64,000 nucleotides of DNA from Chloroflexus aurantiacus J-10-fl (lineage in GTDB: Bacteria > Chloroflexota > Chloroflexia > Chloroflexales > Chloroflexaceae). Positions 6,020-26,156 of this stretch are shown in pieces. Both the position numbers and the translations under genes were made by a program. The notes under the pieces were generated by a model. The model had not been told where the DNA came from, made no database searches, and saw only the letters and a list, made by a program, of their open reading frames with translations. Positions within the stretch are counted from its first letter, which is position 1; each line of letters opens with the position of its first letter. Where the stretch lies: NCBI RefSeq assembly GCF_000018865.1, contig NC_010175.1, positions 2,418,001 to 2,482,000 of the forward strand. Reading direction: 5' to 3'.

Positions 6020-6225
6020 CATCTCCAGTGCCATCACTCATTGGATTGGTTGCCTTACCCATTTGTTATAAGCTTGTCGCAGCGTTTGGAGTGCGGCAGC
6101 CATGCTGCCGCACCAGCCGTGCGCACGATCCGGCGCGTGGCATGCTGTTGACCATACTGCTCACGAGGATACTGGATGTACTCGTTGCGCTCATAGAGTC
6201 GGACAGGACTGAATGAGATACTTTT
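6020..6225 (+). repeat. dispersed hairpin repeat, copy A
   Basis: The core hairpin at 6091-6113 has arms GTGCGGCAG and CTGCCGCAC. It is preceded by GGTTGCCTTAC...GTCGCAGCGTTTGG and followed by a conserved stretch including CGATCCGGCGCGTGG and ACTGGATGTACTCG. The downstream stretch is nearly the same as that of copy D at 16479. No coding potential. The rest of 5784-6489 holds the terminator and an AT-rich promoter zone. Confidence 0.75.
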
Positions 6226-6489: not shown

Positions 6490-7542
6490 ATGCGAATACT
6501 GTTTATCATGGCGAGCCTGTTGCTCGCGGCGTGCTCGCCTGGGGCTATCATCAACCCGGTCTCAACTCCTCCCAAACTGACGGTGACCGGTTGGGTTGGG
6601 TATATGCCTCAAGCCATCATTGATGCATTCAGTGCTGAGACTGGAGTGAGCGTCGAATATATTGGATACGACACACCCGAAGAGGCATTGATCGCCCTGG
6701 AACAGGGTGCTAACTACGATTTGATGATCATGGTCAATTCCTTAGTACCCGATCTGATTGCTGCCGGTAAACTTGCCCCCTTAAACTACGCGAACATTCC
6801 CAATGCCCGCAATATCAGCCCTAGCTTTCGCGATCTGATCTTTGATCCTGGGGGACGCCATTCAATCGTCTATCAGTGGGGCACAACTGGCTTACTGGTA
6901 CGTACCGATCTGGTTGAACAACCAATCACACGCTGGGCCGATCTGTGGAAACCAGACCTCGCAGGGAAGATCGTGCTCTGGCCAATTCCCCGCGATACCA
7001 TCAATGTGTTATTAAAGTCGCTTGGCTATTCGATCAACACTACTGATCCCGGCCAACTTGCTGTAGCTCGTGAACGGGCTGCCGAACTGGCTCACCGGGT
7101 AACCCTGACCCAGGAAGGTGATGAGGTTGTGACGCCCTATCTCCTGTCTGACGAGCACGTGGTTGCGCTCGGTTGGACGTATGACGCATTTGATGCTCAG
7201 GCGCAGAACGAGAATATCGCATACATCATACCTGCTGAGGGTACCATTCTCTGGTTTGACAACTTTGTCATTCCGACCACCAGCTCAAACAGGGCATTGG
7301 CCGAACGCTTTATCGATTTTGTGTTACGACCCGAGATGAGTGCACTTGTAACGAACGAACTGGCGGTAGCAACCGGTAACGAAGTAGCCTATCCACTGAT
7401 TGATCCTGCTCTCCGTAACAACCCGGCTATTTTTCCATCCGGTGATGTCTTACAGAACGCTGAAATAGAATTGTCACTTGACCCGACAACACAAGCAATA
7501 CATAATGAAATATACGCAGCCTTCATATCAGCAAAACCGTAA
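6490..7542 (+). CDS. periplasmic solute-binding lipoprotein, PotD-like (paralogue 1)
   Basis: 350 aa from the ATG at 6490, which gives a clean lipoprotein signal (MRILFIMASLLLAAC, lipobox LAAC); a GTG further upstream would put charged residues ahead of it. The mature part opens with LTVTGWVGYMPQAIIDAF and has the extracellular-binding fold of family 1/8, resembling spermidine/putrescine and iron-type binders (YQWGTTGLLVR, RWADLWKPDLAGKI, FIDFVLRPEMSALV). It would sit on the outer face of the membrane. It lies 4 bp before an equal-length paralogue and no ABC permease or ATPase is nearby, so a sensory role with the downstream kinase is inferred. Ligand unknown; polyamine is only a family-based guess. 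Confidence 0.85.
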   Translation: MRILFIMASLLLAACSPGAIINPVSTPPKLTVTGWVGYMPQAIIDAFSAETGVSVEYIGYDTPEEALIALEQGANYDLMIMVNSLVPDLIAAGKLAPLNYANIPNARNISPSFRDLIFDPGGRHSIVYQWGTTGLLVRTDLVEQPITRWADLWKPDLAGKIVLWPIPRDTINVLLKSLGYSINTTDPGQLAVARERAAELAHRVTLTQEGDEVVTPYLLSDEHVVALGWTYDAFDAQAQNENIAYIIPAEGTILWFDNFVIPTTSSNRALAERFIDFVLRPEMSALVTNELAVATGNEVAYPLIDPALRNNPAIFPSGDVLQNAEIELSLDPTTQAIHNEIYAAFISAKP

Positions 7543-7546
7543 ATGT

Positions 7547-8599
7547 ATGATACGACCACTAACACTATGTTTGTTGTTACTCACGTTGGTTGCCTGTAGC
7601 ACATCAGCACCTGCGCCTGTAGCAGACAGATTGGTCATTACGGGTTGGGCCGGCTATATGCCGCAGGCGATTCTGGATGCCTTCCAGGCTGAGACTGGGG
7701 TTACGGTTGAGTACCGTATCTATGAAGAACAGCCCGCTGCTATCGAGCAAATGCGGGCCGGCGCCGATTACGACCTGGTGGTCATGGGGAGTTTTTTTGT
7801 ACCGCAACTGATCAAGGATGGTCTGCTTGCACCGATTGATTATCGTCAGATTCCCAAATTCCGCTATGTCAGTGCGAATTTTCGCGATCTGAGTTACGAC
7901 CCCGGCGGGAAACATTCAATTGTCTATCAGTGGGGGGTTGGAGGATTGGTGGTACGGCCTGATTTACTTGAGCGACCGGTGACGCGCTGGGCCGATCTGT
8001 GGGATCCGTCTTTGGACGGTAAGATTGCCATGTGGGTGACAGAAGATGACTTGTTTGCCATTGCCCTCAAATCAATCGGCCAACCCCTGGGTACGACCGA
8101 TCCGGCAGTACTAGACCAGGCTGCCGAACGCATTCGTGAACTACTCCCTCGGATTGTTGCCCTCGATCCCACGATGCCTAATGCCGCAACATTGTTGGCT
8201 GACGGCACCTATCCGATTGTGTATGGCTGGGCGTTTGATGCACTGGAAGCACAGTCGCTCAATCCGGCGGTTGAGTTTGTATTGCCGGAAGAAGGGGCCA
8301 TACTCTGGATCGATACATTTGTTGTACCGGCCAGTAGCACTCGCAAGTCACTGGCGTGGCAGTTTATCGATTTTGTCTTGCGTCCAGAAATGAGTGCCCT
8401 GATTACCAACGAGATCTTTGTTGCTACTGCGAATGAATTTGCGTCGCAATTCATCGATCCAGCATTGCGTGATCATCCCTGGGTCTTTCCCAGTGGAACC
8501 GATCTGATGAACGCCGAATATCTGGAAGAACTACCACCGGACATCCTCTCTTATCGCCATCAACTCTGGCAAGAATTAGAGAGTATCACTACGAGGTGA
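7547..8599 (+). CDS. periplasmic solute-binding lipoprotein, PotD-like (paralogue 2)
   Basis: 350 aa from the ATG at 7547, chosen because it starts a lipoprotein signal (MIRPLTLCLLLLTLVAC); the longer frame overlaps the previous gene. It is a clear tandem duplicate of the preceding gene, sharing GYMPQAI-DAF-AETGV, SIVYQWG, RWADLW and FIDFVLRPEMSALITNE, but diverged in the ligand-facing middle, so the two may bind different ligands or form a pair. The stop is 3 bp before the kinase GTG start, so the three genes form one tight operon. No transport partners are seen. Confidence 0.85.
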   Translation: MIRPLTLCLLLLTLVACSTSAPAPVADRLVITGWAGYMPQAILDAFQAETGVTVEYRIYEEQPAAIEQMRAGADYDLVVMGSFFVPQLIKDGLLAPIDYRQIPKFRYVSANFRDLSYDPGGKHSIVYQWGVGGLVVRPDLLERPVTRWADLWDPSLDGKIAMWVTEDDLFAIALKSIGQPLGTTDPAVLDQAAERIRELLPRIVALDPTMPNAATLLADGTYPIVYGWAFDALEAQSLNPAVEFVLPEEGAILWIDTFVVPASSTRKSLAWQFIDFVLRPEMSALITNEIFVATANEFASQFIDPALRDHPWVFPSGTDLMNAEYLEELPPDILSYRHQLWQELESITTR

Positions 8600-8602
8600 T
8601 CT

Positions 8603-11356
8603 GTGCACTCCCTGCGTCGTCGCCTACATCACTTGTTTACTCACTTTAACACCAGCTTGCAAGCCAAACTGGTGCTCTTTACGAGCCTCATGCTAACGGC
8701 AATTCTCCTGATCGCCGCTTACGGTGTCTTTCTGTTTATCGAGTCGATTGAACAAGAGGGATGGGCGGGACGTCAACGCGAAGCGGCGCAGAATGCGGTG
8801 CGTACCATTGATGATTTTTTGCTGCGGGTTGAAGATACGCTGGTACTGCTCGGTTCCCTCTCGGCTGAACAGATCCACCAGTCGCCCGACCTGGCTCCAG
8901 AGCTTCTCAACCGGATACCGGCGTGGGTGGAAATTGTTCGTGTCGATCCAGATGGTCAGGTTATTGCCTCAGCGACACGTGATCGCGCACTGCTGGCTGA
9001 CCTCGTCACCATACCACTCTCCAACTGGTTTCGCGAGGCACGCAGCGGTAAGAGTTATCTTGGCCCTCTCTACATCACTGCCGATAGCGAACCCTATCTT
9101 ATTATGGCAGTACCGGCCAGTGATGGTGGTGTCGTTGCCAGTCGATTGCGGGCAAATTTGCTCTGGGAAACGGTGGCAGCAATTCGATTTGGGCGTACCG
9201 GCAATGCGTACATTGTCGATGAATATGGCACCATCATCGCACATCCTAATCCGCAGCTTGCCCTCTCGTATACATCGATTAGTGAGCGCCCTGAATTTCG
9301 TAGCTTTCCCCCCGATGGCGAGCAACGCTTTTACATTAATCTCTTCGGTGAGGAGACGCTTGGGGTAGCACTTGCTATCCCCGGCACGCCATGGCGGCTA
9401 TTCGCCGAAATTCCTGAAGCAGAAGCCACCGAGTTGTCAACCCAGGCTGGTATTACCTTTACATTCAGCCTGATAATCTTTGGCGTCGTTATGGTGCTCG
9501 CCGTCAACTACCTGCTCAACCGCTTTGTTTTTCGCACTTTGGAGGAGTTACAGCAGGGGGCTGAACGGATCGGAAGTGGTGATTTATCACACCCCTTACC
9601 TGTACCACCTGAACAAGAACTGGCTCAGGTTGCTCAATCCTTCAACACCATGATGCATCAGTTACGCACGCGCAATACGGAGATTGCCCGTCAGACGGCA
9701 AATTTGAAAGCTGAAATTCAGGAGCGTCGTCGGGTCGAACAAGAATTGATCAAAGCCCGTGACGCTGCCGAGGCGGCATCACGCGCCAAGAGCACGTTCC
9801 TTGCCACGATGAGCCATGAGTTGCGTACCCCATTGACGGCAATTATTGGCTATAGTCAGCTTCTGGAACAACTGGTGAGCAAAGGGATATACGATACAGT
9901 AGCGCACGATGTTGGGCGTATTCGGGCAGCCGGTACGCATCTGCTTGCCCTTATTAATGATATCCTCGACATCTCGAAGATCGAGGCCGGTCGGATGACG
10001 GTGAGTGTCGAGTATGCGGATGTGGCCGATCTGGTGCGATCTGCCGTGAATACGATCATTCCCCAAATCGAGAAGAATCGCAATCGGCTCCATGTCCATT
10101 GTCCGCCGGACATAGGCATTCTGAACAGCGACGCAACAAAAGTGCGTCAGGCTCTGATTAATCTGCTAAGTAATGCAGCCAAGTTTACCGAAGACGGTGA
10201 GGTCACTCTGACTGTCAGCCGGTATCAAAAGGATCATCAAACCTGGTTCCGTTTTGTCGTTGCCGATACCGGTATCGGCATTCCGGCTGACAAGCATGAT
10301 AAGTTATTCAAAGCATTTTCGCAGGTCGATGACTCGCCAACCCGTAAATACGGTGGCACTGGCCTGGGTCTGGCATTGAGCCAGCGGTTGTGTGAGCTTA
10401 TCGGGGGCCGGATTACGATGGAGAGTGCCGTTGGGGTTGGTTCAACTTTTACGATGGAAATTCCTGAAATCCCTGGCGATCCTCTAACAACGTCTACATT
10501 GGATTTAGATGAACTGCCTTCTCAAATGACAAGTGAACAACCGGTTGCCATTGACGCATCGGTACCGGTGATGCCGGTGAGTAATGCCATCATTCTCGTC
10601 ATTGATGATGATCCGACAGTCGGAACGATGATTCAGCGTCTCATGGCGGCAGGTGAGGCGTATGTTGTGACAGCGACAACCGGTGCAGAAGGCTTGCGTC
10701 TGGCAACCGATCTTGTTCCCGACCTGATTGTTCTCGATCTCAAACTACCCGATCTCCATGGGCTGGAAGTTCTGGCCCGCCTGCGCGACAATCCTGAACT
10801 AACCAACGTTCCGATAGTTGTATTGACTATCGATGAGCAATCACGGCGCAGTATTACCTTTCCCATTGCCGAGTATCTCGTTAAACCGGTCGCACTTGAA
10901 ACGCTCCTGGAGGTGGTTAAACGCTATTGTCGACCCCAATCTACATCCTCTACTGACCATATCCTGCTGGTTGAAGACGATCAGAGGTTGGCTGAACTGC
11001 TGGAACGAACGTTACGCACTGCTGGCTGGTCGGTTGAAGTAACCTTTGATGGCGAGGCTGGTCTTGCCGCAGCTCTGGCTCGACCACCAGGATTAATTCT
11101 GTTAGACTACATGTTACCGAAACTCGATGGTTTGCAATTCCTTGCTCAGTTGCGCGCTGATCCGGTTGGTCAGACTATTCCGGTGATCTTGATGACTGCG
11201 CGTGACTTGTCTACCGCTGAACGGCAGCAACTGGCAGCAAGCGCGGATGCTATTCAGTATAAGGCTGAATTGGATATAGAGACGCTTATTACGCATATTC
11301 GCAACATGTTGACGCACGCTCGCTCAACTTCTGCTGATAGTACTATTTCGGGATAA
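8603..11356 (+). CDS. hybrid sensor histidine kinase with two receiver domains
   Basis: 917 aa with a GTG start preceded by GAGGTGAT. Order: TM1 (about 20-45), an extracytoplasmic dCache-like sensor (about 50-285, including FGRTGNAYIVDEYG), TM2 (about 288-312), HAMP, coiled coil, HisKA with His405 in SHELRTPL, HATPase (NLLSNAAKF, DTGIGIP, GGTGLGLALS), receiver 1 with Asp712 in VLDLKLPD, and receiver 2 with Asp835 in LLDYMLP. It should autophosphorylate and relay phosphate. No Hpt domain is visible, so the route to an output is open. Its position directly after two binding lipoproteins suggests ligand-loaded lipoprotein is sensed by the dCache domain, as in TorT-TorS or LuxP-LuxQ type systems (inference). 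Confidence 0.9.
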   Translation: MHSLRRRLHHLFTHFNTSLQAKLVLFTSLMLTAILLIAAYGVFLFIESIEQEGWAGRQREAAQNAVRTIDDFLLRVEDTLVLLGSLSAEQIHQSPDLAPELLNRIPAWVEIVRVDPDGQVIASATRDRALLADLVTIPLSNWFREARSGKSYLGPLYITADSEPYLIMAVPASDGGVVASRLRANLLWETVAAIRFGRTGNAYIVDEYGTIIAHPNPQLALSYTSISERPEFRSFPPDGEQRFYINLFGEETLGVALAIPGTPWRLFAEIPEAEATELSTQAGITFTFSLIIFGVVMVLAVNYLLNRFVFRTLEELQQGAERIGSGDLSHPLPVPPEQELAQVAQSFNTMMHQLRTRNTEIARQTANLKAEIQERRRVEQELIKARDAAEAASRAKSTFLATMSHELRTPLTAIIGYSQLLEQLVSKGIYDTVAHDVGRIRAAGTHLLALINDILDISKIEAGRMTVSVEYADVADLVRSAVNTIIPQIEKNRNRLHVHCPPDIGILNSDATKVRQALINLLSNAAKFTEDGEVTLTVSRYQKDHQTWFRFVVADTGIGIPADKHDKLFKAFSQVDDSPTRKYGGTGLGLALSQRLCELIGGRITMESAVGVGSTFTMEIPEIPGDPLTTSTLDLDELPSQMTSEQPVAIDASVPVMPVSNAIILVIDDDPTVGTMIQRLMAAGEAYVVTATTGAEGLRLATDLVPDLIVLDLKLPDLHGLEVLARLRDNPELTNVPIVVLTIDEQSRRSITFPIAEYLVKPVALETLLEVVKRYCRPQSTSSTDHILLVEDDQRLAELLERTLRTAGWSVEVTFDGEAGLAAALARPPGLILLDYMLPKLDGLQFLAQLRADPVGQTIPVILMTARDLSTAERQQLAASADAIQYKAELDIETLITHIRNMLTHARSTSADSTISG

Positions 11357-11390
11357 TCCCCTTACTATCACGGTGCTACCGGGTACACCT

Positions 11391-11765
11391 ATGGCAAAGA
11401 TTCTGATCGTCGAAGATGATAGCAATAACCGGGACTTGATCGCACGTATCGTTGAACTCATGGGACATCAGCCAATTCTGGCAATTGATGGGGCGCAGGG
11501 TGTTGCCCTGGCACGTAGTGAACAACCTGACTTGATCATCATGGATATGGGTCTACCAGTGCTCAATGGCTGGCAGGCAACTCACCGTATTAAGTCGCAA
11601 CCGGCAACCAGGCACATCCCTGTCCTGGCCCTCACGGCATACGCGATGAATGAAGATCGGATACGGTCGTTGGTTGCAGGTTGTGATGATTTCGAGACCA
11701 AGCCGATTGATTTCAATCGCTTCCGTGAAAAGGTAGATGCATTACTTGCACGGCGGGTAGACTAG
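11391..11765 (+). CDS. single-domain response regulator (CheY/DivK-like)
   Basis: 124 aa from the ATG at 11391; an in-frame GTG at 11373 adds only six residues. A lone receiver: acidic pocket VEDDSNN, phospho-acceptor Asp52 in IIMDMGLP, Thr in LALTAYAM and conserved Lys in ETKPID. There is no output domain. It lies 34 bp after the hybrid kinase and is the probable last relay of that operon. The DivK-like composition suggests protein-protein signalling rather than DNA binding. Confidence 0.85.
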   Translation: MAKILIVEDDSNNRDLIARIVELMGHQPILAIDGAQGVALARSEQPDLIIMDMGLPVLNGWQATHRIKSQPATRHIPVLALTAYAMNEDRIRSLVAGCDDFETKPIDFNRFREKVDALLARRVD

Positions 11766-12026: not shown

Positions 12027-12117
12027 GGGCAGGTCGCATAGTTGGTCTAGTGCGCGGCACTGGAAATGCCGTACAGCGGCAACGCTGTCGTGGGTTCGAA
12101 TCCCACCCTGCCCGCCA
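12027..12117 (+). tRNA. tRNA-Ser (anticodon GGA), CCA encoded
   Basis: The acceptor stem GGGCAGG/CCTGCCC is followed by G and an encoded CCA. The anticodon stem CGGCA/TGCCG encloses loop CTGGAAA, giving anticodon GGA. A long variable arm (TACAGCGGCAACGCTGTC) marks it as type II, and the T-arm GTGGGTTCGAATCCCAC is canonical. It reads UCC/UCU serine codons. Confidence 0.93.
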
Positions 12118-12317: not shown

Positions 12318-12445
12318 CTGTGTTCCGCGCCTGATCGTGAGCACGGCTGGCGCGGCAGCCACGCTGCCGCACTCCAAACTCTGCGACACAGGAAACCCTG
12401 TCTGGCAATGGTATCTGCTCTGAAACGTAATCGCACCCCTCAATA
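12318..12445 (-). repeat. dispersed hairpin repeat, copy B (reverse orientation)
   Basis: The core at 12350-12372 (CGGCAG/CTGCCG arms) is flanked on the minus strand by GTCGCAGAGTTTGGAGTGCGG and GCCAGCCGTGCTCACGATC, matching copies A, C and D. Nothing else is recognised between the tRNA and the carB promoter. Confidence 0.7.
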
Positions 12446-15915: not shown

Positions 15916-16264
15916 TCTGGTAGGGGTCAGTTAAACGAGCAGTATCAAATCCTGACCGACACTGTGCCTCGTTCAGGTGGTCAGACCCGTGCTGGTGCGC
16001 TGTCGGTGTGTTCCCGGCGTATTGCTGGTGAGTCGGCACAGGTGCACGAACTGGTTTGCGTACTTTGCCAGCGTGAAGGGTGGCGAGGGTGTCATGGTGG
16101 TGCTGCATCCAGTGGTGGTATGCGACACGCCCCCACCCTCACCCGCCCCGCTCTATGCATTACCCACAACTGGTGTCAACCACGTGCGTATCAGCGGGTA
16201 TGATCGCCATGGGTGCTGTTGTGGACGACTGGCACGGTGGCAGTGCGCCGCTCCAGCCGTGCCA

Positions 16265-16390
16265 GCACGTGCTGAATGGGTTGCCTTACACGCGCATCAT
16301 GTGCGTGTCGCGCAGTTTGGCGTGCGGCAGCCATGCTGCCGCGCCAGCCGTGCTCACGATCCGGCGCGTGGTGGAGCGGTGCCCCGGATG
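16265..16390 (+). repeat. dispersed hairpin repeat, copy C
   Basis: The core at 16322-16344 is preceded by GGGTTGCCTTACACGC and GTGTCGCGCAGTTTGGC and followed by CAGCCGTGCTCACGATCCGG. It shares the left flank with copy A. Confidence 0.75.
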
Positions 16391-16459
16391 GTCATAGCAC
16401 GAACAAATAGCTGTATCTCGTTCCCATTCCGCACACCGGCAAGGATACCGCTTCCAGCC

Positions 16460-16610
16460 CGGATTGCCCTCGTATGGCGTGCGGCAGCCATGCTGCCGCG
16501 CCAGCCGTGCTCACCATCCGGCGCGTGGCATACCGTTCCCCATCCTGGTCACGGAGGTACTGGATGTGCTCGTGCCGATCATCGAGTCGGTCAGGCATGT
16601 ATGCGATACC
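16460..16610 (+). repeat. dispersed hairpin repeat, copy D
   Basis: The core at 16479-16501 is followed by CAGCCGTGCTCACCATCC, GGAGGTACTGGATGTGCTCG and GAGTCGGTCAGG. The right flank matches copy A over roughly 110 bp. Confidence 0.75.
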
Positions 16611-17003: not shown

Positions 17004-18821
17004 CTACGCCGCATCCCTCCGCCCGGCGGCCTCAATATATTCGAGGCTCTGATGGCGAAAATAGGTGTTGTAAAGCTCAGCATAATGCCCGCCGGCAGCC
17101 AGCAACTGATCGTGGGTGCCCTGTTCGAGAATGGTGCCATGGCGGAGCACGATGATCCGATCCACCTCTCGCACAGTGCTTAGCCGGTGAGCGATAATGA
17201 TCGCGGTACGTCCGCGCATTGCCTCGTCAAGCCCCTCCTGGATCAATGCCTCGGTGAGCGGGTCAATGCTGGCCGTCGCTTCATCGAGGATCAGAATCGC
17301 CGGGTCTTGCAATAAGACCCGCGCCAGGGCAACCAGTTGTCGTTGGCCCATACTCAGGCCACTGCCGCGCTCGCCTACCGGTGTGTCCAGTCCGGCTGGC
17401 AGGCTACTCAGCCAGTCGCCGTTGCCGACACGCTGTGCAGCAGCCATCACCGCCTCATCGTCAGCATCTGGTCGTCCGTAACGAATATTCTCGCGCACCG
17501 TACCGTCGAACAAGAAGGGGATTTGGGTCACCATCCCAAGCTGACTACGGTAGGCATTCAGATCGAGACGACGAATATCGTAGCCATCGATCTGAATCTG
17601 ACCACCTTGAAATTCGTAGAAACGAGCAATCAGCTTGGCAATGCTACTCTTGCCCGAACCGGTGTGGCCCACCAGTGCTACCCGTTCACCCGGCTTGATA
17701 TGCAGGTTGAACTGGCGCAATACCGGTTCACCCGGCTTGTACGCAAAATCGACCTCGCTAAACCTGATCTCGCCACGGAGACGTCCCGGATCAAGCCGGT
17801 CAACCTGCACTACTCGCGGTTCAGCGTCGATCAGGGCAAAGACCCGCTCGCCGGCTGCCAGACCGAGCTGAAACTGGCTCCAGAACGAAGCGATACTGGT
17901 CAGCGGAAACCAGAAGCTTTGCAGACCTTGAATGAACAGGAACCAGCTCCCGGTGGTGAGTTCACCGGCATACACTGCCTGTCCACCCAGATAGACCAGT
18001 AATGCTGTCCCAACTGCGGCCAGCAGATTGAGCAACGGAAAGATGCTGCTAAAGGTATAGCGCGTGCGGAGATTGATCCGTCGACTCTTCTGATTCACAT
18101 CGAGGAAGTCAGCGTAGACGGCTTGCTCCTGGCGAAAAGTTTTGGCCACGCCAATACCACTCACCGTCTCTTGAATGTGGTTGCTGACTTCAGCATTGAC
18201 CCGGCGCGATGCGGTGATGACCCGGCGGGCAATGGCGCGAAAAGCCAGCGCTGCGCTGATGATCAATGGGGCCAGTCCCAGCAATATCAGGGTCAATGAC
18301 CAGCTTACACTGGCCAGATAACCGATTAGCACCACGACCAGCAAGAGCCGGCTGAGCAAATCCATCGTCAACGTCATCACCTGTGCGAACGCAGCGGTAT
18401 CAGAGTTGACCCGACTGACAATCTTCCCGGATGGAAACTCATCGTAGAAGCTCAGATCACGGGCCAGGACAGCATCGGCAGCATCGCGGCGCATTGCCAG
18501 TACCACTTCACCAATCGCCCGTACCGACATCGTCTGGCGGATCAGGTTAAATACCCACGAGAGACAGGCAATCAGAGCCAGTGCACCGGCCAGGATACCC
18601 ACCCGATCCAGCGATGTTGCCGTCTGTATCTCATCGATACTGCGCGAGATAAAGATCGGGATCAGCGCCTCGATCAGCGCCGTTGCACTGATCATAAGCG
18701 CTGCGGTGATGATGCGGGGCGCTTGTGGGCGAAAATAGCGCAGAATACGCCGCACCAGTTCACGATCACTGTATTTGCGGTCGTAACCCTCGGCGTCGAG
18801 GCCATCAAACAGAAAACCCAT
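17004..18821 (-). CDS. ABC exporter half-transporter, catalytically competent subunit
   Basis: 605 aa from the ATG at 18821; the longer frame runs into the upstream gene. One base separates this ATG from the upstream stop, so translation is probably coupled. The N-terminal six-helix exporter domain spans about 25-320 and the C-terminal ATPase about 350-590. Walker A is GHTGSGKSS, the signature is LSMGQ (degenerate), Walker B with catalytic Glu is ILILDEATAS and the H-loop is IIAHRLS. It pairs with the preceding gene as a heterodimer. The canonical ATP site would be built from its Walker motifs plus the partner's LSGGQ. Likely exports lipids or drugs; substrate unknown. Confidence 0.9.
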   Translation of the reverse strand: MGFLFDGLDAEGYDRKYSDRELVRRILRYFRPQAPRIITAALMISATALIEALIPIFISRSIDEIQTATSLDRVGILAGALALIACLSWVFNLIRQTMSVRAIGEVVLAMRRDAADAVLARDLSFYDEFPSGKIVSRVNSDTAAFAQVMTLTMDLLSRLLLVVVLIGYLASVSWSLTLILLGLAPLIISAALAFRAIARRVITASRRVNAEVSNHIQETVSGIGVAKTFRQEQAVYADFLDVNQKSRRINLRTRYTFSSIFPLLNLLAAVGTALLVYLGGQAVYAGELTTGSWFLFIQGLQSFWFPLTSIASFWSQFQLGLAAGERVFALIDAEPRVVQVDRLDPGRLRGEIRFSEVDFAYKPGEPVLRQFNLHIKPGERVALVGHTGSGKSSIAKLIARFYEFQGGQIQIDGYDIRRLDLNAYRSQLGMVTQIPFLFDGTVRENIRYGRPDADDEAVMAAAQRVGNGDWLSSLPAGLDTPVGERGSGLSMGQRQLVALARVLLQDPAILILDEATASIDPLTEALIQEGLDEAMRGRTAIIIAHRLSTVREVDRIIVLRHGTILEQGTHDQLLAAGGHYAELYNTYFRHQSLEYIEAAGRRDAA

Positions 18822-18822
18822 A

Positions 18823-20640
18823 CTATGCAGCCCCTTCTGTTGAACGAACAAGATCGGTCAGCGTGGCGGTATGTTCGTAGCGCGCAAAGATACGACGATA
18901 GTGTGGTGATGTGCGTAACAGCTCTTCGTGAGTACCGGATGCCACCAGGCGCCCACCGTCGAGGACAAGGATTTGATCGGCCCACCGAATCTGGGCCAGG
19001 CGATGGGTAATCAGCAGTACGGTGCGGCCCTGTTGTGCCTGCCGAATCGCCCGTTGAATCTCGTCTTCAGTCGCGCTATCAATCGCGCTGGTGCTATCGT
19101 CGAGAATGAGAATGCGGGGATTGGCAAGGAAGGCGCGGGCGAGGGCAATGCGCTGGCGCTGACCACCAGACAAAGTGACGCCGCGTTCGCCGATCACTGT
19201 CTGGTAACCATGCGGCATGCGACTGATAAACTCGTGGGCCTGTGCTGCCCGTGCTGCTGCTTCGATTTGCTCCGGTGTGGCCTCTGGTGCGCCGAACGCA
19301 ATATTCTCAGCGATAGTGCGCGAGAAGAGAAAAATATCCTGCTCGATTTTTCCGATCTGCGAACGCAGCGCATCGAGATTCCAGTCACGCACATCAACCC
19401 CGTCAATCAACACCCGTCCGGCAGTAGCGTCGTAGGTACGGTTAACGAGTTGGGTAAGCGCACTCTTCCCGCTGCCGGTCTGGCCGACGATGGCGACTGT
19501 CTGCCCGGCAGGAATATGGAACGAGATGTCGTGGAGCACCTGATGGGGTTCTTCACCAGGGTTGGCAGCAAAACTGAAGCTGACATGCTCAAAGGTGATT
19601 TCGCCACGCAGCGGTGCCCGATAGCCATCCGGGTTCTCATCGAGATCGGTTTCAGCGTTGATGATGGCGAGAATACGTCGCGCACCGGCCAATCCGGCCT
19701 GAAAGACCGAAAAGGCGAAGAGGGAAATAAACGTTGGAAAACGCAACACATTCATCAAGCCAATGACCGCGACCACCTGCCCCAGACCGATGTCACCTGT
19801 ACTGTACAGCCAGAGGGCATGGAAGAATTGAGCACCCAAGGCAATGCCAAACAGCAACAACGGTAAATAGCGGGCCTCGATCCGACCCTGTTCAACAAAT
19901 AGATCACGGAAGCGTTGGGCATTGCGGAGGTATTTCGAGCGTTCGAGTGCCTCGCGAGCGCTGGCCTTCACCACTTCAATACCGCTGATGGTCTCTTCCA
20001 GACCGGCATTCATCAGTCCATACTGCTCGCGCTGCTGCTGAATCACCGGCATCAGGCGGCGCAAGTAATGGCGCGCCGTGATGATATAACCGACCACAAA
20101 GATCAGTGGCACAACCATCAACCGTGGCTCGGTAAAGAAGATAAACGTTAGAGGGACGACAATCCCTAACACCGTTTCTGAAATCAGGGTTGCGCCGGGC
20201 ACGATCATATTGGCCACCAGATTGGTATCGTCGGTGGCGCGGGCCATCAAATCACCGGCTCGTTGCCGATCATGAAACGCTTTACTCTTGGCGAGCAGGC
20301 TCTCGTAGAACTCCTGGCGCACATCAGCTTCGACCCGTGCTGCCACATTCTCGGCGGACAGACTTCCAATCAGTGCGCTGATACTGTCGGTAATCATCAA
20401 CGCCAGCACTCCCAACGCCAGCGCAGTCAATGCAGCATAGTCAGGAGTGCCACTGAGCACATCAGCAGCACGCCCAATCACCGCCTGTGCTCCCGAATAG
20501 GAGGCCCATGCCGTGATGAAACAGAGATAAAACCCCAACACAAACGGCCAGTAACGAGCAGCATGCGAGAGGAGCCAACGCGCAACACTGCGTCGGTCAT
20601 AAGAATAGGCAGAAGCCACAGAAAATTCACTACGCTGCAC
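18823..20640 (-). CDS. ABC exporter half-transporter, degenerate-site subunit
   Basis: 605 aa. The GTG start has AAAGGAG nine bases upstream. The exporter membrane domain spans about 30-320 and the ATPase about 345-590. Walker A is GQTGSGKSA, the signature LSGGQ is intact, but Walker B reads ILILDDSTSAID, so the catalytic Glu is Asp. That substitution, combined with the partner's LSMGQ, is the known signature of heterodimeric exporters with one non-hydrolysing site (TM287/288, BmrCD type). First gene of a two-gene operon. Confidence 0.9.
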   Translation of the reverse strand: MQRSEFSVASAYSYDRRSVARWLLSHAARYWPFVLGFYLCFITAWASYSGAQAVIGRAADVLSGTPDYAALTALALGVLALMITDSISALIGSLSAENVAARVEADVRQEFYESLLAKSKAFHDRQRAGDLMARATDDTNLVANMIVPGATLISETVLGIVVPLTFIFFTEPRLMVVPLIFVVGYIITARHYLRRLMPVIQQQREQYGLMNAGLEETISGIEVVKASAREALERSKYLRNAQRFRDLFVEQGRIEARYLPLLLFGIALGAQFFHALWLYSTGDIGLGQVVAVIGLMNVLRFPTFISLFAFSVFQAGLAGARRILAIINAETDLDENPDGYRAPLRGEITFEHVSFSFAANPGEEPHQVLHDISFHIPAGQTVAIVGQTGSGKSALTQLVNRTYDATAGRVLIDGVDVRDWNLDALRSQIGKIEQDIFLFSRTIAENIAFGAPEATPEQIEAAARAAQAHEFISRMPHGYQTVIGERGVTLSGGQRQRIALARAFLANPRILILDDSTSAIDSATEDEIQRAIRQAQQGRTVLLITHRLAQIRWADQILVLDGGRLVASGTHEELLRTSPHYRRIFARYEHTATLTDLVRSTEGAA

Positions 20641-25440: not shown

Positions 25441-26156
25441 GAAAGTGGGGTATTCCTGTGTATATTTGGGTAGCTCAGGCAAGAGCCTGGGCTACTTTGT
25501 TCTGTTTGTGGCCTGGCGGGGGGGGCAACAGTTGGTGGAACCATCTCCTTATACCAAAATCCTGACCAATTCTGGGCCTTATCACTGCGGCTATCAATAC
25601 TCAGCCCCTGCGCTGGATTTTCAGCGATGCACCGGTGCAGTTCGATCTGAGGCGGAATTCCAGCCCGCGTTGATGCTTCCCCGTTACCAGGGTCACGTAC
25701 CGGCAAGGGAGGCCGCTGCAACTCGTGCCGGATCGGGAGCGCGACTGCTGCGGCAGCCACGCTGCCGCACTCCATATCACGCGACACGGGCAATCCAGTC
25801 TGGTAACGGTATCCTCTCCGAAACGTGATGCTATCGCGTGCGCAAGGGGAATGCTGGTTCGGCGTATCCGCGCTCAGGTATGGTGCCAGGGGGATCGTTG
25901 GATCGCGTCTCAGGAACGCTATTCCACCAGATTTGATAATACGCGGTGTGTTCTTGCAACTGCGGGAGCTGTGTTTTCGTAGCCATCGTGCAACAGTGCC
26001 AATTCTGTATCATCAACGACTGACAGCTCCTCACGCTGCTACCGTAGGAGCGTGAGAAGCTGTGGAGTCAGGCAGGCGGTATGTTCTGGTGTGATGACGC
26101 ACAGTTTCGGCTACGAGGTAGTATTGCTCGCTGCATACCGTGCGCCGGATAGAGCA
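25441..26156. other. intergenic region with repeat copy E and a hairpin after the dabA-like gene
   Basis: Dispersed repeat copy E (minus orientation) has its core at 25749-25770, with TCGGAGAGGATACCGTTACC and CGTGTCGCGTGATATGGAG on the minus strand. At 26023-26063 a two-part hairpin (ACAGCT, TCACGCT / AGCGTGA, AGCTGT) lies about 95 bp past the minus-strand dabA-like stop and may terminate it, though no T-tract follows. No gene is supported. Confidence 0.6.

Follow-up and report, generated by a model that had tools for sequence, protein, structure and literature searches.

The PotD homolog NspS controls the membrane receptor MbaA by binding polyamines, without transporting them (PMC9993111, PMC8967002, PMC8079147). 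In Vibrio cholerae and Sinorhizobium meliloti the gene for this transporter-unlinked PotD-type solute-binding protein (SBP) lies directly before that of the receptor. We found the same arrangement in a 64,000-nucleotide window of the Chloroflexus aurantiacus J-10-fl genome (positions 2,418,001-2,482,000 of the single, 5,258,541-base contig NC_010175.1), where an operon encodes two PotD-type lipoproteins, SBP1 and SBP2, followed by a hybrid histidine kinase with a dCache ectodomain and a lone receiver. NspS is thought to contact the ectodomain of MbaA, as we propose for the SBPs here; V. cholerae has a separate importer, PotABCD1, just as the C. aurantiacus genome has a separate importer operon (L062); and three relatives of the window operon hint at a likeness in cyclic di-GMP (c-di-GMP) signalling. 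The two systems also differ. GGDEF and EAL domains are part of MbaA itself, whereas the receptor here is a histidine kinase; a lone NspS reads two polyamines, but the window kinase has two SBPs next to it; and the window SBPs lack several of the PotD contact residues. We consider it probable that the operon specifies a two-component system that senses amines by way of binding proteins, with SBP1 as the core receptor and SBP2 as an accessory for a different amine.

Other described systems share parts of this design. CuaD-CuaS-CuaR of Ruminiclostridium cellulolyticum also combines a lipoprotein SBP, a sensor kinase and a regulator in one operon, and CuaD acts as a sensor that binds the kinase CuaS (PMC10384115). 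Unlike the window operon, however, that system has one SBP, for cellobiose, its kinase is a 627-aa class-I protein rather than a 917-aa hybrid, and, by the figure legend, CuaR carries a helix-turn-helix domain that the lone receiver of the window lacks (PMC10384115). In LuxP-LuxQ of Vibrio the kinase has a double-PDC (Cache-like) ectodomain and receives its ligand signal from a binding protein outside the cytoplasm (PMC8534201). The Salmonella dCache_1 receptor STM1987 likewise needs a solute-binding protein, ArtI, for its ligand response, although in this case the receptor is a diguanylate cyclase and the SBP binds arginine, with neither a kinase nor a tandem pair involved (PMC8846402). TorT-TorS of Escherichia coli pairs an SBP with a hybrid kinase, but the TorS ectodomain is all-helical (PMC8534201) and that of the window kinase is a dCache domain. 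BvgS and EvgS have two Venus-flytrap domains per hybrid kinase; there, however, the domains are fused into the kinase (PMC8534201), while here they are two separate lipoproteins.

The principle of SBP-dependent sensing is therefore already known, and the sequence-only reading of this stretch, which did not recognise the system, had overlooked NspS-MbaA and CuaDSR; its remark holds for a dCache hybrid kinase with a tandem pair. In the open-licence literature, to which our search was confined (subscription papers lay outside its scope), we found no description of this operon or of paired SBPs with a kinase. Within the reach of that search, three elements are new: a tandem PotD-type pair encoded with a single dCache hybrid kinase, the persistence of this arrangement across the genus although some members have naturally lost one partner, and a further family of PotD-type SBPs with kinases in the same bacteria. 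If our reading is true, transporter-free PotD-type amine sensing is not confined to the c-di-GMP receptors of proteobacteria but extends to a Chloroflexota histidine kinase. The natural one-SBP and two-SBP versions of one kinase within a genus also offer a ready comparison of what a second binding protein adds.

The proposal that the SBPs are sensors rather than transporters, made earlier from the sequence, is well supported by transporter linkage. The operon contains no ABC permease or ATPase gene, as had been noted: none of the 50 BPD_transp_1 matches in the source genome lies between 2,312,369 and 2,766,332, and the nearest importer-type permease match is more than 100 kb from the window. 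The PotABCD arrangement, in which permease and ATPase are encoded together with the SBP, is thus absent here. The genome has four PotD-like matches: SBP1, SBP2, the SBP of a classical ATPase-permease-permease-SBP operon of the PotABC type at 2.31 Mb (L062), and an SBP that adjoins another hybrid kinase (L063). SBP1 has a match in 104 of the 158 genomes of the class, and we surveyed linkage across 79 loci with 84 SBP rows, each assigned to a type according to which of four references it matched best; the 19 sensor-type rows do not include the window's own pair. No sensor-type row has a permease within 4 kb (0/19), and none has any permease or ATPase match, compared to 55 of the 65 transport-type rows with a permease. 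A same-strand kinase match accompanies 18 of the 19 sensor-type rows, and the remaining one (L064) meets the contig end after 11 bp. Ten transport-type rows have neither permease nor kinase, one of which (L109) has an ATPase match. Homologous loci with an adjacent permease or ATPase, which the sequence-only reading had named as what would speak against a sensor role, were looked for and not found among the close relatives.

These data also bear on the alternative that SBP1 and SBP2 are orphan transport proteins feeding the PotABC-type permease at 2.31 Mb, with the kinase a mere neighbour or a regulator of uptake. Such a permease does exist in the genome, with its own PotD-type protein, and three of the 65 transport-type rows (L070, L088, L118) combine a permease with a nearby same-strand kinase match, so that kinase adjacency alone is no proof of a pure sensor role. 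In addition, a weakly supported branch (83/85) joins SBP1 and SBP2 to the transport PotDs of the proteobacteria E. coli and V. cholerae. However, an SBP of that permease is encoded next to it and branches within the transport clade, apart from SBP1 and SBP2, and in the surveyed loci the sensor-type SBPs are almost always linked to a kinase and never to a permease. We therefore regard orphan transport as very improbable.

The operon is conserved across the genus. C. islandicus and further members show synteny of the SBP and kinase genes, with the complete tandem SBP1-SBP2 operon in five of the eight genus genomes (the source genome, G006, G007, G009 and G012) and an SBP1-kinase-receiver version without SBP2 in two (G008 and G011; loci L056 and L058). 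The eighth, G010, could not be assessed: its contig ends about 660 bp past the upstream aldehyde dehydrogenase gene, and the assembly has no match to the kinase ectodomain. SBP1 and the kinase thus occur together in 7/7 assessable loci and SBP2 in 5/7, source included, while the lone receivers of the other six assessable loci share 78-89% identity with that of the window. Purifying selection acts on both SBP genes (dN/dS 0.10-0.17 for SBP1 and 0.09-0.15 for SBP2, one saturated SBP1 pair excluded); together with the recurrence of the gene order in other Chloroflexus, this indicates that the operon is not a chance arrangement. Since SBP1 alone goes with a retained kinase and receiver, SBP2 appears to be losable, which suggests that it is an accessory, an optional extra. 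An obligatory two-protein sensor is not supported, because two of the seven assessable loci have SBP1 only. When the SBP1-kinase gap of these two loci was searched for a remnant of SBP2, none was found; the single SBP2 hit below E 0.01 fell within the C-terminus of SBP1 itself (L058). If the SBP1 tree is right, SBP2 was lost twice, but since several branches of the kinase trees have bootstraps of 24-57, whether it was lost once or twice is uncertain.

By both sequence and fold, the SBPs belong to the PotD/PotF family. Both match SBP_bac_8 and SBP_bac_6 far over the cut-off, and the best NCBIfam model for each is PotD (PRK09501), at 159 bits and below the 582-bit equivalog cut-off. The best PDB sequence match is 7xjm for both (5e-51 for SBP1, 1.9e-49 for SBP2). 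The predicted SBP1 model (pLDDT 87.8, pTM 0.84) has Streptococcus pneumoniae PotD (4eqb_A; TMq 0.76, rmsd 3.7) as its best structural match by E-value and aligns with V. cholerae and E. coli PotD structures at TMq 0.83-0.85 and rmsd 2.2-2.3, including 7xjm_C (0.84, 2.2) and 1pot (0.85, 2.2). In a tree of 38 sequences, among them seven SBP1, five SBP2, nine of the second SBP-kinase family (SBPB) and 14 of the class transport type, each of these four groups lay on one side of a supported branch. The SBP1 and SBP2 clades had supports of 99/98 and 100/100, respectively, and were sisters at 100/100; on this tree the duplication is older than the split of the sampled Chloroflexus. Since SBP1 and SBP2 are not sisters of SBPB, the sensors do not form one clade, and the sensor role of PotD-type SBPs may have arisen more than once.

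To interpret the ligand pocket we aligned the 12 SBP1 and SBP2 sequences of the genus (seven and five, respectively) in PotD numbering. The pocket of PotF and PotD comprises a proximal amine site (S38, D39 and D247 in PotF), an aromatic box (W37, W244 and F276 in PotF; W255 in PotD) and a distal site, with D247 and D278 as amine contacts in PotF and S83, Y85, D168, E171 and Q327 as distal residues in PotD (PMC8666671). The position of PotF D247 is Ser in PotD. In our alignment W34, W229, W255, Y37, D257 and an Asp at position 232 were invariant in 12/12 sequences, so that, by alignment, the polyamine aromatic box (W-W-W) is present together with the key amine aspartates, the equivalents of PotF D247 and D278. 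The D247-type Asp at 232 is also found in 9/9 SBPB proteins, and in just 3/14 transport-type rows. Five of the eight predicted norspermidine contacts of NspS (W41, Y233, D236, W261 and D263; PMC9993111) appear to have counterparts here, in a comparison made through the published list and the PotD/PotF numbering. The spermidine-specific distal residues of PotD, as aligned, are not retained: Q327 is replaced in 12/12, position 83 is Ser in only 3/12, and E171 has become Asp in nine and Gln in three.

At this distal end the two paralogs diverge. Position 168 is Ile in all seven SBP1 and Thr or Glu in all five SBP2, and position 327 is Glu in all seven SBP1 and Leu or Met in all five SBP2. Over their full length the two proteins are identical at 164 of 347 positions; the earlier observation that they have diverged in the middle proved correct, with a trough of 10/40 identical columns at residues 199-238 compared to 29/40 at 119-158 and 28/40 at 279-318. 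The simplest inference is that a cationic amine head would be held alike in both proteins and the tails differently; with the head pocket in common and the distal residues different, it is plausible that SBP1 and SBP2 take two different ligands. Alternatively, the two could be redundant copies binding the same ligand, a matter of dosage, with the second copy being lost. The absence of SBP2, without detectable remnant, from two of the seven assessable loci and the identity of the invariant amine-box residues in both proteins would fit such redundancy, but the separate, well-supported clades, the purifying selection on both genes and the paralog-specific distal residues all argue against it, and we think it unlikely. 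A further elaboration, for which we see only a modest chance, is that the two are separate amine receptors with a common head pocket and a differing far end, so that the kinase would be a ratiometric or agonist/antagonist sensor comparing two amines, conceivably, as one tentative example, one from the bacterium's own kind and one from its mat neighbours. If this were true, two proteins and a kinase would do what NspS-MbaA of V. cholerae does with one protein and a cyclase.

In the kinase, Pfam identified dCache_1 (3.5e-17), HAMP (3.7e-13), HisKA (8.8e-19), HATPase_c (9.7e-29) and two stretches of Response_reg, and the H, N and G motifs and receiver motifs that were checked are present. The dCache_1 score of 63.2 bits exceeds the cut-off of 45, which identifies the protein as a dCache receptor. 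The model of this ectodomain is weak (pLDDT 65.3); this low-confidence model aligns to ectodomains of chemoreceptors and sensor kinases, which we take to be Cache-type domains, with Z scores of 13.0-15.7 among the 50 matches listed. LuxQ is not among these 50, which excludes nothing. The best-scoring NCBIfam model for the whole kinase was the TorS model TIGR02956, yet at 328 bits against a cut-off of 676.5 the protein is not a member; LuxQ membership was rejected likewise (NF041947, 261.8 bits against 1200). LuxP, moreover, is a single protein outside the PotD family, unlike the window SBPs, and LuxQ relays through an HPt protein, whereas no HPt is linked to the window kinase. Pfam found no HPt domain within the kinase, and a genome-wide search for a dedicated HPt protein gave five Hpt matches, none linked to the operon and all in frames of 724-964 aa. 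For these reasons direct transfer from the His to the receivers would be the likeliest route. Outside the genus, the best-scoring dCache relative in the class has 28% identity (E 1.5e-20), and at E 1e-4 no SBP of these types was found in the 13 out-of-genus dCache loci (L041-L053), which are short stretches of 2,976-3,849 bases each.

The kinase could instead bind its signal directly through dCache, the SBPs serving only to buffer, sequester or modulate it. The dCache domain is indeed more conserved than SBP1 between the source genome and its congeners (73-80% identity against 59-65%), its low-confidence model aligns to the ligand-binding domains of PctA (Z 14.9) and DctB (Z 14.5), and in the CuaDSR system the kinase may sense sugar weakly without its SBP (PMC10384115). 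Set against this are the joint occurrence of kinase and SBP1 in every assessable locus and the ability of the tandem PDC ectodomain of LuxQ to sense through an SBP (PMC8534201). We looked for faster dCache evolution after SBP2 loss and saw none, with branches of 0.20 for both G008, which lacks SBP2, and the source genome (G000), a result that fits either reading. On balance direct sensing by dCache seems to us improbable.

Relatives give a hint of the output of the system. A gene encoding a REC-PAS-GGDEF-EAL protein directly follows the lone receiver in three of the seven loci (L055:5079-7274, L057:13846-16041 and L059:4044-6266); its domains were assigned by Pfam in L055 and by similarity in L057 and L059, and GGDEF and EAL motifs are present in all three. 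No such gene was found beside the receiver in the window, L054, L056 or L058. The output in these three relatives is probably through c-di-GMP.

In the amine-sensing reading that we favour, SBP1 and SBP2 would be lipid-anchored at the outer face of the membrane. SBP1, as the core receptor, would bind a cationic amine and act on the dCache ectodomain, changing the activity of the kinase, and phosphate would be transferred from the His to the two receivers within the kinase and to the separate receiver protein. SBP2, which arose by an old tandem duplication, would act on the same kinase while holding a related but different amine, and would be optional; one kinase could thereby read two amines or their ratio, with output in some relatives running through the REC-PAS-GGDEF-EAL regulator and c-di-GMP. 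What the sequences themselves establish is the conserved gene order, the lack of a linked transporter at the surveyed sensor-type loci, the catalytic motifs, the purifying selection, the kept amine-box residues and the naturally SBP2-less loci; we infer the amine ligand, the SBP-kinase docking, the direction of the signal, the phosphotransfer route and the output; the steps by which the SBPs would act on dCache and switch the kinase are supplied by NspS-MbaA, CuaDSR, LuxP-LuxQ and STM1987-ArtI.

Several observations weigh against this reading, among them the kinase-linked transport rows and the weak grouping with proteobacterial transport PotDs described above. In the pocket, all 12 sequences have Gly at the position of proximal PotF D39 (E36 in PotD) and other residues in place of PotD Y85, D168 and Y293; given these losses, classical spermidine is unlikely and a non-amine ligand is possible. 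dCache domains are also able to bind ligands themselves. On the output side, the operon has no gene with a DNA-binding or enzymatic output domain, and the best match to the REC-PAS-GGDEF-EAL regulator in the source genome is 43% identical and lies elsewhere.

The reading frames, lengths and spacing of the four genes are as had been described from the sequence (Table 1), with intergenic gaps of 4 bp between SBP1 and SBP2, 3 bp between SBP2 and the kinase, and 34 bp between the kinase and the receiver. A promoter scan was uninformative (8 sites found, 8.5 expected).

Table 1. Features of the operon and its immediate surroundings (positions in the window)
Feature	Position	Strand	Basis
SBP1, PotD-type lipoprotein, 350 aa; core sensor candidate	6490..7542	+	SBP_bac_8 2.1e-27; lipobox LAAC
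SBP2, paralogous PotD-type lipoprotein, 350 aa; accessory sensor candidate	7547..8599	+	SBP_bac_6 1.9e-27; lipobox LVAC
Hybrid histidine kinase, 917 aa, dCache-HAMP-HisKA-HATPase-REC-REC	8603..11356	+	Pfam and catalytic motifs
Extracytoplasmic dCache domain, kinase residues 58-268; proposed SBP docking site	8774..9406	+	Pfam; low-confidence model
Two tandem kinase receivers, residues 664-772 and about 785-915	10592..11347	+	Response_reg, two stretches; PhoB-model match 785-915; D/T/K motifs
Lone single-domain response regulator, 124 aa counted from ATG	11391..11765	+	Response_reg 4.6e-23
tRNA-Ser(GGA), just downstream, outside the operon	12027..12117	+	ARAGORN

The second permease-less family, SBPB, likewise combines a PotD-type SBP with a hybrid kinase in the same bacteria. 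Its copy in the source genome occupies L063:5852-9999 (G000:C1, about 1,580,851-1,584,998), where the kinase frame is broken by one in-frame TAG at codon 247; the orthologs in L065, L066, L067, L068 and L073 are intact at 1025-1032 aa. In the pocket of this family W255 is lost in 7/7 Chloroflexus copies and W34 in 4/7, but both copies from another genus keep them. These latter loci, from the same taxonomic family (L060:6843-11102 and L061:3540-8230), have a single second-type SBP; the adjacent hybrid kinase is 1055 or 1063 aa long and yields no Cache match with Pfam.

We also scanned genome contigs with the SBP alignment. The scan was built on two short peptide patterns, is no census, and relied on an open reading frame picker that missed the SBP in several loci; it gave 43 loci, of which the neighbours of 35 (L141-L175) were inspected, the weak Streptomyces matches L176-L183 being left out. 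Four of the 35 were Chloroflexus, and the rest were transport-type or unlinked SBPs. In Marinobacter excellens HL-55 (L157:5266-11393), a Spirochaetales metagenome-assembled genome (L167:5041-10886) and Marinobacterium profundum (L172:7833-13178), potABC-type genes, a PotD-type SBP and a GGDEF-EAL match stand in a row, and one binding protein may be common to transport and c-di-GMP signalling there. In L174 a kinase match lies a few genes ahead of potABC-type genes.

Within the window, the minus strand at 17004-18851, about 5 kb downstream of the operon, encodes a 615-aa ABC protein that its motifs, judged by eye, mark as exporter-like; it is not an importer permease. A dispersed, partly inverted repeat family with pieces 79-89% identical is found upstream of the operon at 6028-6221 and again at 12326-12388, 16259-16609 and 25724-25829.

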